Source: Chthonomonas calidirosea T49
GTDB taxonomy: Bacteria > Armatimonadota > Chthonomonadetes > Chthonomonadales > Chthonomonadaceae
Length of the DNA stretch: 64,000 nt
Direction of reading: 5' to 3'
NCBI RefSeq assembly: GCF_000427095.1
Contig: NC_021487.1
Coordinates: 620,001 to 684,000, forward strand
Shown piece after piece: positions 32,266 through 39,105 of this stretch. The first letter of the stretch is position 1. The number at the start of each line of letters is the position of its first letter. The notes below the pieces were generated by a model. That model was given only the letters and a program-made list of their open reading frames with translations. It did not search any database and was not told the DNA's origin. Position numbers and translations under genes: made by a program.

Positions 32266-33033
32266 ATGAAGATACTTGTCTCTATCAAGCGGGTGCCAGA
32301 CCCCTATGCCAAGATTCGGCTGACTCCGCAGGGAGCTCTTGATACCGTTGGCCTAAATTGGACAATGAATCCTTTCGATGCCATTGCCCTTGAGGAAGCC
32401 CTCCGAATACGTGAGAAAGGCGTCGCCACTGAAATTATTGTGGTAAGCATTGGTGGTCCTGAAGTCGAAGAAACGCTGCGCACGGCCCTCGCCATGGGGG
32501 CAGATCGGGCGATCTGTATTCTAGAAGAACGGCCACCAGATCCCCAAAGAGTAAGTCAACTTCTCGCTGCCATCTATCATCGCGAACAACCCCGCCTCAT
32601 TCTTATGGGTAAACAGGCTACCGATGACGATTCAAATCAAGTAGGCCAGCGCCTTGCTGCTCTTCTGCAGCTGCCACAAGCCACCTTTGCTTCCTCCATC
32701 CATTTGGCATCCGATGGACAAACCGCCCAAGTGACACGCGAGGTGGATAGCGGTAGAGAGATACTTGAGCTTACACTCCCTGCTGTCATTACCGCCGATC
32801 TACGCCTGAATGAACCGCGTTATGTGGCCCTACCCGCCATTTTGAAAGCGCGCACTAAACCGCTCCTACGCCTCTCCGGCTTCGAGCTGGTGCCTCTCAC
32901 CTCGCCCGGCTTTCTTCTGGTGAAACGTGAAACTCCCCCGCCACGCAAACCTGGGCGCAAAGTTCAAAACGTAGAGGAGCTTATCGCTGCCCTGCGCGAG
33001 GAAGCCAAAGTCTTGCCGAACAAGACCTCTTAA
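32266..33033 (+). CDS. etfB: Electron transfer flavoprotein beta subunit
   Basis: EtfB with EtfA forms the FAD/AMP heterodimer that accepts electrons from acyl-CoA and related dehydrogenases. The 255-residue protein begins MKILVSIKRVPDPYAKIRLT and has the family patterns MNPFDAIALEEALR, ALAMGADRAI and GKQATDDDSNQVGQRLAALL. The C-terminal KARTKPL is the usual AMP-side region. Weak ribosome site at the ATG. It is followed after 15 bases by etfA. Confidence 0.95.
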   Translation: MKILVSIKRVPDPYAKIRLTPQGALDTVGLNWTMNPFDAIALEEALRIREKGVATEIIVVSIGGPEVEETLRTALAMGADRAICILEERPPDPQRVSQLLAAIYHREQPRLILMGKQATDDDSNQVGQRLAALLQLPQATFASSIHLASDGQTAQVTREVDSGREILELTLPAVITADLRLNEPRYVALPAILKARTKPLLRLSGFELVPLTSPGFLLVKRETPPPRKPGRKVQNVEELIAALREEAKVLPNKTS

Positions 33034-33048
33034 GAACGGAGGTATGGG

Positions 33049-34005
33049 ATGACCAAGTGGATAGTTTTGGCAGACACCAACGGCGAAACCGTGCTACAGA
33101 CTACGTTGTCTGCGATCGGCTTCGCACAACAGTTTGCTCCTAACAACTTTTCACTCCTCATTATCGGAGGAACAACCGTTCTTGACGCCCTGGAGCCGTG
33201 GCGCCGCTATGGAGCCGAAAAACTGCTAATTGGCTCTCTAACGGAGTTGGCTCATCCTACAGCTGACAAGGTCGCCCCCATCGTCGTCAAAGCCATGCAA
33301 TCGGAAGGAGCAAGTTGGCTCGTAGGTCCCGCCTCCTCCTTTGGACGCGATCTTTTGCCTCGCGTAGCTGGGCTGCTAGATCTTCCAATGCTTTCCGAGA
33401 TCATGCGTGCCGAACGAGATGAGGCTGGCTTCTTGTTCCAGCGCCCTGCCTACGCCGGGAACCTTATTGAAACCTATAGGCCGGTGGCCAATAGAGGCAT
33501 CCTAAGCATACGTACCTCAGCCTTCTATGCAGCTACCACCGACTCACTGAGTCCGGTCGAAATACTGCAGCTCGATCCTTCCGAGCTGCCAACCTCGACC
33601 CGCTGGATGGGGCAAGAAAAATCCCATAAACAACGCCCCGAACTAAGCTCCGCGCGTGTCGTTGTCTCGGGAGGCCGTCCCTTAAAAGATGCCGAGACCT
33701 TCGAACGCCTTATCGGCGGTCTTGCCGACCGCCTAGGCGGGGCTGTAGGCGCCACTCGCGCCGCCGTGGACAGTGGTATCGCCCCAAACGAGCTGCAGAT
33801 CGGCCAAACCGGTCGCGTGGTTGCTCCAGACCTCTATATCGCCGTGGGGATATCCGGCAGCGTACAGCACCTAGCCGGCATGAAAGATTCTAAAGTTATT
33901 GTGGCTATCAATAACGATCCGAATGCACCTATCTTCGAGGTTGCGGACTATGGGCTCGTAGCCGACCTTTACGAGGCCGTTCCCGAACTGCTTGAAAAAC
34001 TCTGA
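33049..34005 (+). CDS. etfA: Electron transfer flavoprotein alpha subunit
   Basis: The 318-residue protein has the N-terminal EtfA/B fold and the C-terminal FAD-binding domain. The latter shows VVSGGRPLKDAETFERLIGGLADRLGG (split here), GATRAAVDSG, QIGQTGRVVAPDLYIAVGISG and the NDPNAPIFEVADYG loop. These contact the FAD. GGAGG stands 6 bases before the ATG. The gene lies between etfB and the membrane-bound partner gene, with 2 bases before the latter. Confidence 0.96.
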   Translation: MTKWIVLADTNGETVLQTTLSAIGFAQQFAPNNFSLLIIGGTTVLDALEPWRRYGAEKLLIGSLTELAHPTADKVAPIVVKAMQSEGASWLVGPASSFGRDLLPRVAGLLDLPMLSEIMRAERDEAGFLFQRPAYAGNLIETYRPVANRGILSIRTSAFYAATTDSLSPVEILQLDPSELPTSTRWMGQEKSHKQRPELSSARVVVSGGRPLKDAETFERLIGGLADRLGGAVGATRAAVDSGIAPNELQIGQTGRVVAPDLYIAVGISGSVQHLAGMKDSKVIVAINNDPNAPIFEVADYGLVADLYEAVPELLEKL

Positions 34006-34007
34006 AT

Positions 34008-35996
34008 ATGCCAACTCGCACGATCTTTTTTCATATTAGCGTCTTCCAACAGGCCTGTTTCTACACTCTGGCGCTGATCAGCACTGGTATTGCTCTCATC
34101 CCCATCGTACGTCATGCGCGAATCTGGCTTCGAGGCGGTCTCCCCTTCGCCTTACAGCAAGCCCTTCAACACCTTGCATCCTTCAGCCGTGAAGTCTTTG
34201 CACATCGCCATGTTCTGCGACGCCGTTACGCTGGCATAGCCCATCTTCTGCTCTTCTACGGCATGCTCGTTCTCTTCATTGGAACCTGCATTGTCGCTAT
34301 CGAACACTACGGAGCCTTCTTTTTCGGCCCTCACTGGCTCTACTATGGTGGGTTCTACCTAACCTGTAAAGTTACCCTAGACATCTTTGGACTAGCTCTC
34401 GTCATTGGCATCTTGCTCACTCTGTTGCGCCGTCTCTGCTTTCGCCCTGAGATGCTCGGCCACACGCCATGGGATACCGGTTTTCTACTCCTCCTCCTCG
34501 CAGCCACATTTACCGGTTTTCTTTTGGAAGGAGCCGGGCTAGCCGCCGATCCCTCACGCCATGCCTATATGGCCTACTCTCCCATCGGGCGCTGGTTTGC
34601 TCTGCTATTTCCCCATCTATCGCCAACCGGTTATGTCCTCATCTGGTGGGTTCATGCGCCGCTCGTGCTCATCACCATCGCCGCTCTTCCTTATGGACGA
34701 CGGCTTCATCTATTTACCGCCCCTCTCTCCATCCTCCTCCAACCTAACCGAAACATGGGCGTTTTAGAACCGGAAACCATGGAGAAAGTCGAGCAAACCG
34801 GCCATATTGGCTTGAGAACCCTCGCTGATCTCAACGGCACCTACCTTCTGAACCTTGATGCTTGCATGGAGTGCGGCCGATGCACCGAAGCCTGCCCAGC
34901 CCACGCGGTAGGTAAACCGCTCGATCCCAAACAGATCGTGCTTTCCCTAAGACAACAGATGTGGGCAGCCGATCTCTTAGAAACAACTACCGATGTTATT
35001 GATGAAGAATCGCTTTGGGCCTGCACCAACTGCCATGCATGTGTGCAAGAATGCCCTGCGGCCATCCGCCACGTAGATCTTATCAATGGCATCCGTAGAT
35101 ATCGTGTGGGTGAGGGACACCTAAGTGGCTCGGCAGGCACCATGCTGCGCCAGCTAGCAAGCCAAAAGAACCCGTGGGGACTTCCGGCTTCTCAAAGAAT
35201 GGAGTGGGCAAAAGGGCTAGATGTCCCTATCGTAGAACCCGGACAAAAACCAGATATCCTGCTTTGGGTGGGATGCGCCGGAGCTTTTGAGCCTCGTGCG
35301 CAAGCCACTATGAGAGCACTGGTATCCTTGCTACATGCCGCCAACGTCTCGTTTGCTGTTCTAGGTCACCAAGAATGCTGTACGGGCGACCCTGCCCGTC
35401 GAATGGGAGAAGAGTTTCTTTTTCAAGAGCTGGCAGCGGAGAATATCGCCGTACTAAATCGCACTGGTGCCTCCAGCATTCTTACTGCCTGCCCTCACTG
35501 CTTTCACACGCTTAAACACGAATATCCCCAGTTCGGGGGTAACTACCAGGTTATGCACCACACTCAATTTCTAAAACAACTCGTGCAGAATGGTCGCCTT
35601 CAACTAGAGCGTGGCGCACAGACGAACGTTACCTATCACGATCCCTGTTTTCTGGCACGGGTTAACGGTGAGGTGAGGGCCCCTCGGGCCCTGCTGCAAA
35701 CGCTCACTCATCAGCCCCTAAAAGAGCCGGAGCACCACGCCGATCGCACTCTGTGCTGCGGTGCTGGAGGAGGACGCATGTGGATGGAAGAGCCCAGCAC
35801 CCAGCGGCCTAGCAACCGAAGAGTGAAGGAGCTTTTATCTACCGGTGCCCAAACCATAGCGGTCAGTTGCCCTTTCTGCAAAGTCATGCTAGGCGATAGC
35901 CTCGCTACCTCAGAACAAAATACCGCCCACCTTGCCGATATTGCAGAAATACTGCTCGCCTCTATCGCTAAAACCGATCTATCGCTTCCTCAGTAG
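34008..35996 (+). CDS. etfD: EtfD-type membrane ETF:quinone oxidoreductase
   Basis: The 662-residue protein probably passes electrons from EtfAB to the quinone pool. Residues about 1-245 contain five to six membrane helices like the haem-b NarI-type domain. Two 4Fe-4S motifs follow: C286-C289-C292-C296 (CMECGRCTEACP) and C339-C342-C345-C349 (CTNCHACVQECP). The C-terminal half has two CCG-type domains (CCTGDPARRMG; CCGAGGGRMWMEE) as in HdrD/GlpC/LutA. This is the arrangement of EtfD, which replaces the ETF-QO dehydrogenase in mycobacteria and many other bacteria. Its position right after etfBA supports the role; the name is inferred from the family and context. Confidence 0.9.
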   Translation: MPTRTIFFHISVFQQACFYTLALISTGIALIPIVRHARIWLRGGLPFALQQALQHLASFSREVFAHRHVLRRRYAGIAHLLLFYGMLVLFIGTCIVAIEHYGAFFFGPHWLYYGGFYLTCKVTLDIFGLALVIGILLTLLRRLCFRPEMLGHTPWDTGFLLLLLAATFTGFLLEGAGLAADPSRHAYMAYSPIGRWFALLFPHLSPTGYVLIWWVHAPLVLITIAALPYGRRLHLFTAPLSILLQPNRNMGVLEPETMEKVEQTGHIGLRTLADLNGTYLLNLDACMECGRCTEACPAHAVGKPLDPKQIVLSLRQQMWAADLLETTTDVIDEESLWACTNCHACVQECPAAIRHVDLINGIRRYRVGEGHLSGSAGTMLRQLASQKNPWGLPASQRMEWAKGLDVPIVEPGQKPDILLWVGCAGAFEPRAQATMRALVSLLHAANVSFAVLGHQECCTGDPARRMGEEFLFQELAAENIAVLNRTGASSILTACPHCFHTLKHEYPQFGGNYQVMHHTQFLKQLVQNGRLQLERGAQTNVTYHDPCFLARVNGEVRAPRALLQTLTHQPLKEPEHHADRTLCCGAGGGRMWMEEPSTQRPSNRRVKELLSTGAQTIAVSCPFCKVMLGDSLATSEQNTAHLADIAEILLASIAKTDLSLPQ

Positions 35997-36883: not shown

Positions 36884-37909
36884 TTAGGAAGACGTACCCT
36901 GTCGGTTCTGCCGCGCCGCATAGGCCTGCAGAGCGGCATGATAGACCTGCTTCAAAGGCACGTTATGCGCCACGGCGGCTGCCTTAACATCCTCGTACTC
37001 CGGTGATGCCGTTCGCTCCACGCCACGCCAGCTCCCGATCTTGATACGAATCGGGCCATAGGGCGTCTCTATACTCTCCCATCGCCGTGCCAGCACATAG
37101 CGCGCCATTAAAGTATGACGAATGCCGAAAGTGGTCGTTTCGGTAAAAATAACCTCCGCAAGTGTTTCGCTTTTTTCCTGCGGCCCTAACACGGTTAGCA
37201 GAGTTGCCGGGCGCCCTTTTTTCATATAGATGGGCGTTAGATAGACATCGAGCGCTCCGACTGCAAATAGACGCTCCAGAAGCGGCTCATAGAACTCCGG
37301 AGAAAAATCGTCGAGGTTGGTCTCCAAAACGGCCACGGTCTGCGGAGTCTCCCCTCCTGAATCCTCGGATGAAGCCTCCTGTCCGGTAGCTAGCTCGCGT
37401 GGCAACTCTTCCCATGATAAGGATGGCACCGGCTCATCACGCAGTTCGGCAATCGCGCGTGGAAGCAGTGGCATAAGAACCCTTAAGGCGGCCTGAACCT
37501 CCTCTAAGCTAAATGGCAAGTTCACAATAAGAACCCGATTTCGTAGGCCTGCAACACCTCGCGAGAGCAGCAGTGTAGGCGCCTGCATAGCGCCCCACAG
37601 ACGTATGCACTCCATCACCCCCGGTGCTTCCCTTTGTATCACCTGTCTCGTAGCCTCCGGCGCTGACGCACGCGGAGAAAAGCCGGTCCCTCCCAACGTC
37701 AATAGCAGATCACAGCGACCATCGCTCCAACGGCGAAGGGTCTCGGCGATCTGCGGAGGGTTATCCGGAACAGCCTGCTTCTCCACGAGCTCCCAACCAC
37801 GCGTTTGGAAGGTCTCCTCTACCCAGTTTCCTACAGCCTTTGCCTCCTCTTCTCCCCTAGCAACATCATCGCCAATGAACAGAAGACAGAAGCGAATCGT
37901 CTGGCTCAC
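36884..37909 (-). CDS. Fusion of MoaB/MogA-type domain with LarC C-terminal (LarC2) domain
   Basis: Residues about 1-165 are a molybdopterin-binding MoaB/MogA domain: LLTLGGTGFSPRASAPEATR (GGTG 73-76), LLSRGVAGLRNRVLIVNLP. After an acidic linker (about 168-190), residues 191-335 match the C-terminal domain of LarC, with VAVLETNLDDFSPE (196-201 ETNLDD). LarC inserts nickel, with CTP, in the nickel-pincer cofactor of lactate racemase-type enzymes. The LarC N-terminal domain is absent. The start is GTG, overlapping the stop of the HEAT-TlpA gene (GTGA). Both halves look complete for their parts, so this is a genuine fusion and not a frameshift. The combined function is unknown. Confidence 0.88.
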   Translation of the reverse strand: MSQTIRFCLLFIGDDVARGEEEAKAVGNWVEETFQTRGWELVEKQAVPDNPPQIAETLRRWSDGRCDLLLTLGGTGFSPRASAPEATRQVIQREAPGVMECIRLWGAMQAPTLLLSRGVAGLRNRVLIVNLPFSLEEVQAALRVLMPLLPRAIAELRDEPVPSLSWEELPRELATGQEASSEDSGGETPQTVAVLETNLDDFSPEFYEPLLERLFAVGALDVYLTPIYMKKGRPATLLTVLGPQEKSETLAEVIFTETTTFGIRHTLMARYVLARRWESIETPYGPIRIKIGSWRGVERTASPEYEDVKAAAVAHNVPLKQVYHAALQAYAARQNRQGTSS

Positions 37910-39105
37910 GATCCCTTCACCCCCGTTAATAGCTGATCGATAACTTTACTATAAGGCTCTGGGTCCCGTGGCGCTCCCTGCCAAATACGACAGATGCGCC
38001 CTTGAGGATCTATCAACACGTTTACCGGAACATCCTCAATGCACCCAAATTGACGTAATAGCAGCGGAGTTGCCATCCCCTGAGGTGGGATCACGTTATT
38101 ACGCCGACAGTAGTTGCGTACCTCGGAGGCCGTGTTGTTCCCAACAACTACCCCGATAATGTCTACTGGTTTGCCCACATAGCGTTCGTAGAGGGCATTG
38201 AGATCCGGCTGCTCCGCCATACAGGGGCCGCAGTTGAACCCCCAAAAGGTGAGCAGGGTAATTCGTCCACGCTGTGTCCGCGGGGTCAAAGTGCGTCCAT
38301 CTATCATTCGCAGGGTGAAATCTGGGCAGGGAACCGTTAGGGTAGGTGCCACAGGACCAGTAGCGACAAATTGGCGACTTACCGGCCAATGTGTTCGTTT
38401 GGTCTGCCACCACCTGATCCACTGAGCTGCCATCTTTTGGCGCAACGTCTGAGGTGCCAGCATCGAGACATGCCAAGGCCTATGCAGCCAATGCGCTAAG
38501 GCACTCATGGCCATCTGGGAAACGTTTATATCTGGATCTTCCGTCGCTTGTACTAACGCCGGCACCAAGCTAGGATCAAGCTTCTGCTTATGACGCTCCG
38601 TAATAAGTGCGAGCTGCGTAGCCGCATCTTCTCGAACCCAGGGATCCTCATCCTGCAGAGCCGCAGCCAACAACTGCTGTCCTTTCAAAAAGTCCATGCG
38701 CGGCAGTTCGTAAAGCGCCCTTCGGCGCACCTCCGAATCATAATCCTGAAAAGCCTGCTTCACCGCAGCAATGGCCTCAGGAGTTTTCCAGTTCCCAAGC
38801 TGGTCTACCGCCGCATAGCGCAAGCCCGCACTTGCGCTGTGTACATACTGCAGTAACAAGGGCAACTGCTGCTCTTTCGACAGCCCGTTGAGCTTCGTTA
38901 TGAGCGCTGGCAAGGCGTCCTCGCTATTTCCATAGAGGGGATCCAGCGGTGGCAGAGCCGGTTGTTCATGCAGATGACGCAGAACCAACGCCACCACGAT
39001 CGCAAAAACGGCAGCCCAGAGGAAGGTTGGCCGCAGCGCAGAGCGCGTGCCAATCGATTCACGGGCAGGGGCAATTTTACTAGATAGCATTTTAAATGAC
39101 ATCAT
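37906..39105 (-). CDS. Membrane-anchored HEAT-repeat and TlpA-like thioredoxin protein
   Basis: The 399-residue protein has one N-terminal membrane helix (residues about 27-43). Residues about 60-235 contain HEAT/PBS-type helical repeats (for example SAGLRYAAVDQLGNW, DSEVRRRALYELPRMD, DPWVREDAATQLALI). Residues about 257-395 are a TlpA/redoxin domain with the active site C292-G-P-C295 (GFNCGPC) and the cis-Pro near DVPVNVLIDPQG. It likely acts as an extracytoplasmic thiol-disulphide reductase with a protein-binding arm, perhaps in cytochrome c maturation or repair. The two ATGs are adjacent; the second (39102) is better spaced from GGAGG. Confidence 0.88.
   Translation of the reverse strand: MMSFKMLSSKIAPARESIGTRSALRPTFLWAAVFAIVVALVLRHLHEQPALPPLDPLYGNSEDALPALITKLNGLSKEQQLPLLLQYVHSASAGLRYAAVDQLGNWKTPEAIAAVKQAFQDYDSEVRRRALYELPRMDFLKGQQLLAAALQDEDPWVREDAATQLALITERHKQKLDPSLVPALVQATEDPDINVSQMAMSALAHWLHRPWHVSMLAPQTLRQKMAAQWIRWWQTKRTHWPVSRQFVATGPVAPTLTVPCPDFTLRMIDGRTLTPRTQRGRITLLTFWGFNCGPCMAEQPDLNALYERYVGKPVDIIGVVVGNNTASEVRNYCRRNNVIPPQGMATPLLLRQFGCIEDVPVNVLIDPQGRICRIWQGAPRDPEPYSKVIDQLLTGVKGS

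Follow-up and report, generated by a model that had tools for sequence, protein, structure and literature searches.

A MogA–LarC2 fusion of the Chthonomonadaceae that probably unites two independent cofactor functions, with a MogA half that looks inactive in Chthonomonas calidirosea

The window analyzed here, a stretch of 64,000 nucleotides from the chromosome of C. calidirosea T49, encodes on its minus strand (36884..37909, stop codon included) a protein of 341 residues with a GTG start, in which a MogA-type domain is followed by the LarC2 domain of the nickel insertase LarC. The MogA/MoaB (MoCF_biosynth) domain, whose active site is degenerate, spans residues 1–165 (37415..37909, minus strand). 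It is followed by a linker of residues 166–189 (37343..37414, minus strand), which is modeled with low confidence and varies in length among relatives, and by the LarC2 domain of residues 190–330 (36920..37342, minus strand), as delimited by Pfam, NCBIfam, Foldseek and alignment. Immediately upstream lies a gene for HEAT repeats and a TlpA/ResA-like redoxin (37906..39105, minus strand), the stop codon of which overlaps the start of the fusion gene (GTGA). The same gene directly precedes the fusion in four further genomes (G045, G047, G048 and G050), and the two genes are probably co-transcribed; the conserved neighbors of the fusion offered no functional clue other than this gene. Elsewhere in the window (32266-35996, plus strand), two electron-transfer-flavoprotein-like genes are followed by one for a membrane/iron–sulfur heterodisulfide-reductase-like protein, as judged by reading the sequence.

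The two-domain architecture is supported by several independent comparisons. The Pfam MoCF_biosynth profile matches residues 10–150 (E 1.6e-18; 67.2 bits, cut-off 26.6), and the Ni_insertion profile matches residues 182–323 (E 8e-49) with its positions 235–375 of 375, namely the C-terminal part of LarC. The NCBIfam profile for the LarC2 domain (NF052512) is matched over its entire length (1–118 of 118) by residues 192–309, at 151.7 bits against a cut-off of 50. Searches against PDB sequences recovered Thermus MoaB with the N-terminal half (E 1.5e-30), and LarC (E 4e-31) and LarC2 (E 1.4e-28) with the C-terminal half. An AlphaFold model, built from 23 window and locus sequences, contains two confident domains (mean pLDDT 86); its pTM of 0.50 leaves their relative placement unsure. 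Foldseek superimposes the LarC2 half on 6bwo (TM 0.94, rmsd 1.3) and the MogA half on the MoaB/MogA structure 2is8 (TM 0.83), and most blocks of the latter half exceed a pLDDT of 80, except for the GGTG and 105–120 loops. Thus, the initial annotation of residues 191-335 as a LarC2 domain with an ETNLDD motif agrees with the Pfam, NF052512 and 6bwo matches, and its MoaB/MogA fold with a GGTG loop in residues 1-165 is borne out by Pfam and by 2is8, although the rest of that active site is not preserved (see below). In comparison to LarC (LarC2, PDB: 6bwo; full-length, PDB: 12bi), the fusion shares the whole LarC2 domain, its invariant residues and its predicted fold, but has a MogA domain in the place of LarC1. 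The protein is accordingly not a full-length LarC, as LarC1 and LarC2 do not lie on one chain. The initial annotation was also right that the LarC1 domain is unfused: it is encoded by a separate gene of 257 codons at contig position 3233253, about 2.6 Mb away on the same chromosome.

The architecture, which the initial annotation had suggested looking for in other genomes, was found in all 17 Chthonomonadaceae genomes searched, spanning 11 genera, as open frames of 307–400 amino acids with both MogA and LarC2. This recurrence bears on the possibility of an assembly error, raised by the same annotation, or of an annotation error that had joined two neighboring genes. Nothing was found in favor of such an artefact; given a single-contig genome and the identical architecture in 16 other assemblies, its probability is negligible, and we regard it as excluded. 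In a survey of 291 genomes of the phylum, LarC2 was present in 164, and the LarC2 frames inspected outside the Chthonomonadaceae had no MogA domain. Likewise, among the 118 LarC2 frames listed from this and other phyla, only those of the Chthonomonadaceae carry MogA, and among the matches listed for 80 loci the only fusions are the three from this family. No published description of a MogA–LarC2 fusion was found in the literature searched, which lacked most subscription papers. A different and conventional MogA fusion occurs in the same order: a genome of a sister family (G036) encodes a MoaC–MogA protein beside MoaA and a MoeA-type gene (L236:4436-5413, plus strand).

A separate LarC1-only gene, whose product ends at about position 235 of the profile, is present in 15 of the 17 family genomes, whereas 13 genomes of two sister families (f2 and f3) have a single-chain LarC spanning the whole profile. 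In C. calidirosea (L238:7212-8813, minus strand) and four other genomes (G042, G045, G048 and G053) this gene is immediately preceded by one of the menaquinone pathway (PF02621). The LarC1 proteins of the Chthonomonadaceae form one clade in a phylogenetic tree (SH-aLRT 100), whereas the 144 columns of LarC2 alone are too few to locate the split, and the tree made from them does not recover the family as a single clade. The family-wide presence of the fusion, the single LarC1 clade and the full-length LarC of the sister families together suggest that the split of LarC and the fusion most simply arose once, in the ancestor of the Chthonomonadaceae. A sister-family genome (G055) encodes a stand-alone MogA ending in EPVDH, the point after which the linker of the fusion starts, and this protein is likely to picture the donor of the MogA half. 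A divided LarC is also found in L. plantarum, in which the LarC1 and LarC2 frames are joined by programmed frameshifting. There too they are separate reading frames (lp_0106/lp_0107; locus tags from PMC8305020); however, those frames are adjacent, while in C. calidirosea they lie far apart and LarC2 has acquired a new partner.

The fusion shares its fold, GGTG loop and one catalytic aspartate with MogA/MoaB proteins such as E. coli Mog, Thermus 2is8 and the G domains of Cnx1 and gephyrin. Two aspartates, which in the E. coli enzyme are Asp49 and Asp82, are essential for MogA to adenylylate molybdopterin (PMC9458074). Alignment of the C. calidirosea protein with E. coli MogA shows that the equivalent of Asp49 is kept, whereas that of Asp82 is Ala81 (codon 37667..37669, minus strand), a position occupied by Asp in 16 of 16 other fusions. 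In the family alignment, the glycine of the LPGS motif, invariant among the relatives, is replaced by Phe133 (37511..37513, minus strand), yielding LPFS. All 16 relatives' fusions retain both aspartates, GGTG and LPGS. The divergence extends well beyond these residues: the 16 relatives share 41 invariant MogA positions, 13 of which are broken in the C. calidirosea protein, as against 0–4 in each relative when left out in turn, and the LarC2 half of the same protein breaks one of 23 invariant positions (Fisher p 0.012 versus MogA). Mean identity to the other fusions shows the same asymmetry, with 41.5% for MogA, the lowest in the family, and 57.3% for LarC2, among the highest. Branch lengths for MogA, LarC2 and LarC1 were also fitted on a common topology derived solely from LarC1 and LarC2. 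With MogA, the terminal branch of C. calidirosea is the longest and measures 1.37 (22% of the tree); with LarC2 it measures 0.30, an ordinary rate of evolution, and with LarC1 0.26. Its TIGR00177 score of 81.5 bits falls under the cut-off of 85.35, while three relatives score 110–117. The MogA half looks inactive in C. calidirosea.

Despite the loss of its catalytic site, the MogA domain remains in frame without stops and is folded in the model, and a structural role for it in C. calidirosea may have been selected. This would fit the main rival to the explanation we favor, in which the MogA trimer fold serves as a non-catalytic structural or regulatory scaffold that LarC2 needs, organizing LarC2 and recruiting LarC1, so that the dead MogA would be kept on purpose. 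MogA-type proteins are trimers and some MoaB proteins are hexamers (PMC3896444), and Glp/MoeA provides a precedent for a fold of molybdenum cofactor enzymes being repurposed without activity (PMC11733289). If true, the assembly of molybdenum and nickel cofactors would be physically coupled in the Chthonomonadaceae, and the retention of a dead MogA would be explained. However, LarC in the sister families and in other bacteria has no MogA domain (PMC11796402), and the terminal branch of the MogA half, the longest of all, fits relaxed constraint at least equally well. We consider a scaffold of this kind rather unlikely. It should also be noted that a stop codon in the MogA domain would remove LarC2 as well.

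The genomic context of the MogA half differs in a corresponding manner. The C. calidirosea genome is a single contig of 3.44 Mb (99.6% complete), and profile searches of it recovered no MoaA, MoaC or MoeA (the last via PF00994); its only PF00994 proteins are the fusion and CinA. Among the 16 relatives, a MoeA-type match is present in 15, MoaA in 14 and MoaC in 13, most of the gaps occurring in assemblies that are incomplete. Apart from MoeA and CinA, these relatives have no MogA-type protein other than the fusion. Since the relatives have the other genes of the pathway and no further MogA, we infer that their fused MogA is the molybdopterin adenylyltransferase of the Chthonomonadaceae. Conversely, the MogA half of C. 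calidirosea appears to have decayed because its molybdenum cofactor pathway was lost. Of the genes that the initial annotation had singled out for the two pathways, larB, larE and larC1 are thus present in C. calidirosea (see below), while MoaA and MoeA are missing.

The LarC2 half shows the opposite pattern of conservation. In an alignment of 23 LarC2 rows that covers other phyla and includes the protein itself, 19 columns are invariant and all of them are kept, and the ETNLDD motif is present. Exactly two proteins of C. calidirosea match the Ni_insertion profile, namely the LarC1-only gene product and the fusion. The NCBIfam profiles identify LarB (291.4 bits, cut-off 175), LarE (334.7, cut-off 150) and LarC1 (217.7, cut-off 90). 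Around 1.445 Mb of the contig, larE, a gene for a LolA-like periplasmic protein and larB follow one another in this order, overlapping or adjacent and with neither larC nor larA beside them (L237:6911-9479, minus strand). A search for LarA with PF09861 (Lar_N) gave no match in C. calidirosea. A nickel-pincer route lacking a client was therefore considered and dropped, as an NPN-dependent isomerase of group 22 (NPN_iso_grp_22, NF052515) is present though PF09861 missed it (contig 1015693–1017000; L268:1483-2829, plus strand; 461.6 bits, cut-off 400). The protein was recovered with an alignment of two divergent LarA-like proteins from sister families, in which weak PF09861 matches occur, and a group-22 isomerase is present in all 10 genomes of the order that were searched. 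It is the likely client of the LarB/C/E route. By homology, then, C. calidirosea encodes a complete predicted nickel-pincer route along with a candidate client, and the LarC2 half has probably escaped decay because this pathway was kept.

These observations speak against the proposal of the initial annotation that the single chain implies a shared nucleotide-activated step of metal insertion, in which adenylylation by MogA would feed into the nickel insertion carried out by LarC2, or a role in a new metal cofactor. The proposal has a biochemical rationale in that both families activate a precursor with a nucleotide before the metal is inserted, as MPT-AMP in one case (PMC3896444) and as cytidylylated P2TMN in LarC in the other (PMC11796402), and the fusion is family-wide. 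Nevertheless, nickel insertion would depend on MogA activity if the step were shared, and C. calidirosea contradicts this provided that its nickel pathway is functional, which its conservation suggests: its LarC2 half and Lar genes are intact beside a decayed MogA without the Asp82 equivalent and the LPGS glycine. Furthermore, nickel insertion by LarC in other bacteria involves no MogA (PMC11796402), and since the relatives encode the known partners of either ordinary pathway, no new pathway is called for. We therefore consider a shared step or a new cofactor highly improbable.

The explanation that we regard as probable is a bifunctional, lineage-specific fusion of two independent functions, of which the MogA half persists as a relic or scaffold in C. 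calidirosea. The decay of MogA along with the lost molybdenum cofactor pathway, and the integrity of LarC2 along with the retained Lar pathway, suggest that each half follows its own pathway. According to this reconstruction, the LarC gene of the Chthonomonadaceae ancestor would have been split, with its LarC2 half joined behind a resident stand-alone MogA gene and LarC1 left as a gene of its own. In most members of the family, the N-terminal half of the fusion would function as a molybdopterin adenylyltransferase yielding MPT-AMP. The C-terminal half, judging from homology, would be the CTP-binding part of a nickel insertase that works with LarC1 in trans on the product of LarB and LarE. In the LarC of Moorella, CTP cytidylylates P2TMN before nickel insertion (PMC11796402), and the same order of events is presumed here. 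In C. calidirosea, where the searches show that the molybdenum pathway has been lost and the MogA catalytic site is gone as well, the MogA half would at most provide an N-terminal scaffold that still folds. The LarC2 half would have been retained for synthesis of the nickel-pincer nucleotide, with the group-22 isomerase as its likely client.

The association of a MogA-type domain with another cofactor-assembly enzyme has parallels in the MogA–MoeA proteins gephyrin and Cnx1 and in MoaC–MoaB proteins such as PRK03604. In these cases, however, the partners belong to the molybdenum pathway, whereas LarC2 belongs to that of a separate nickel cofactor. The relatives' fusions resemble MogA/MoaB in the Asp82 equivalent and LPGS too; the C. 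calidirosea protein differs from those enzymes in its alanine, its LPFS and its junction to LarC2. The fusion also indicates that LarC can be split and its LarC2 domain given a new partner. On the sequence evidence the answer to whether the fused domains share a function appears to be no, and this calls for caution when metabolic links are deduced from nothing more than a fusion. C. calidirosea represents a natural knock-out of one of the two pathways and makes the question of whether fused domains imply a shared function directly testable. Throughout one bacterial family, enzymes of two unrelated metal cofactors are carried on one chain, in an apparently unreported architecture assembled from known parts.
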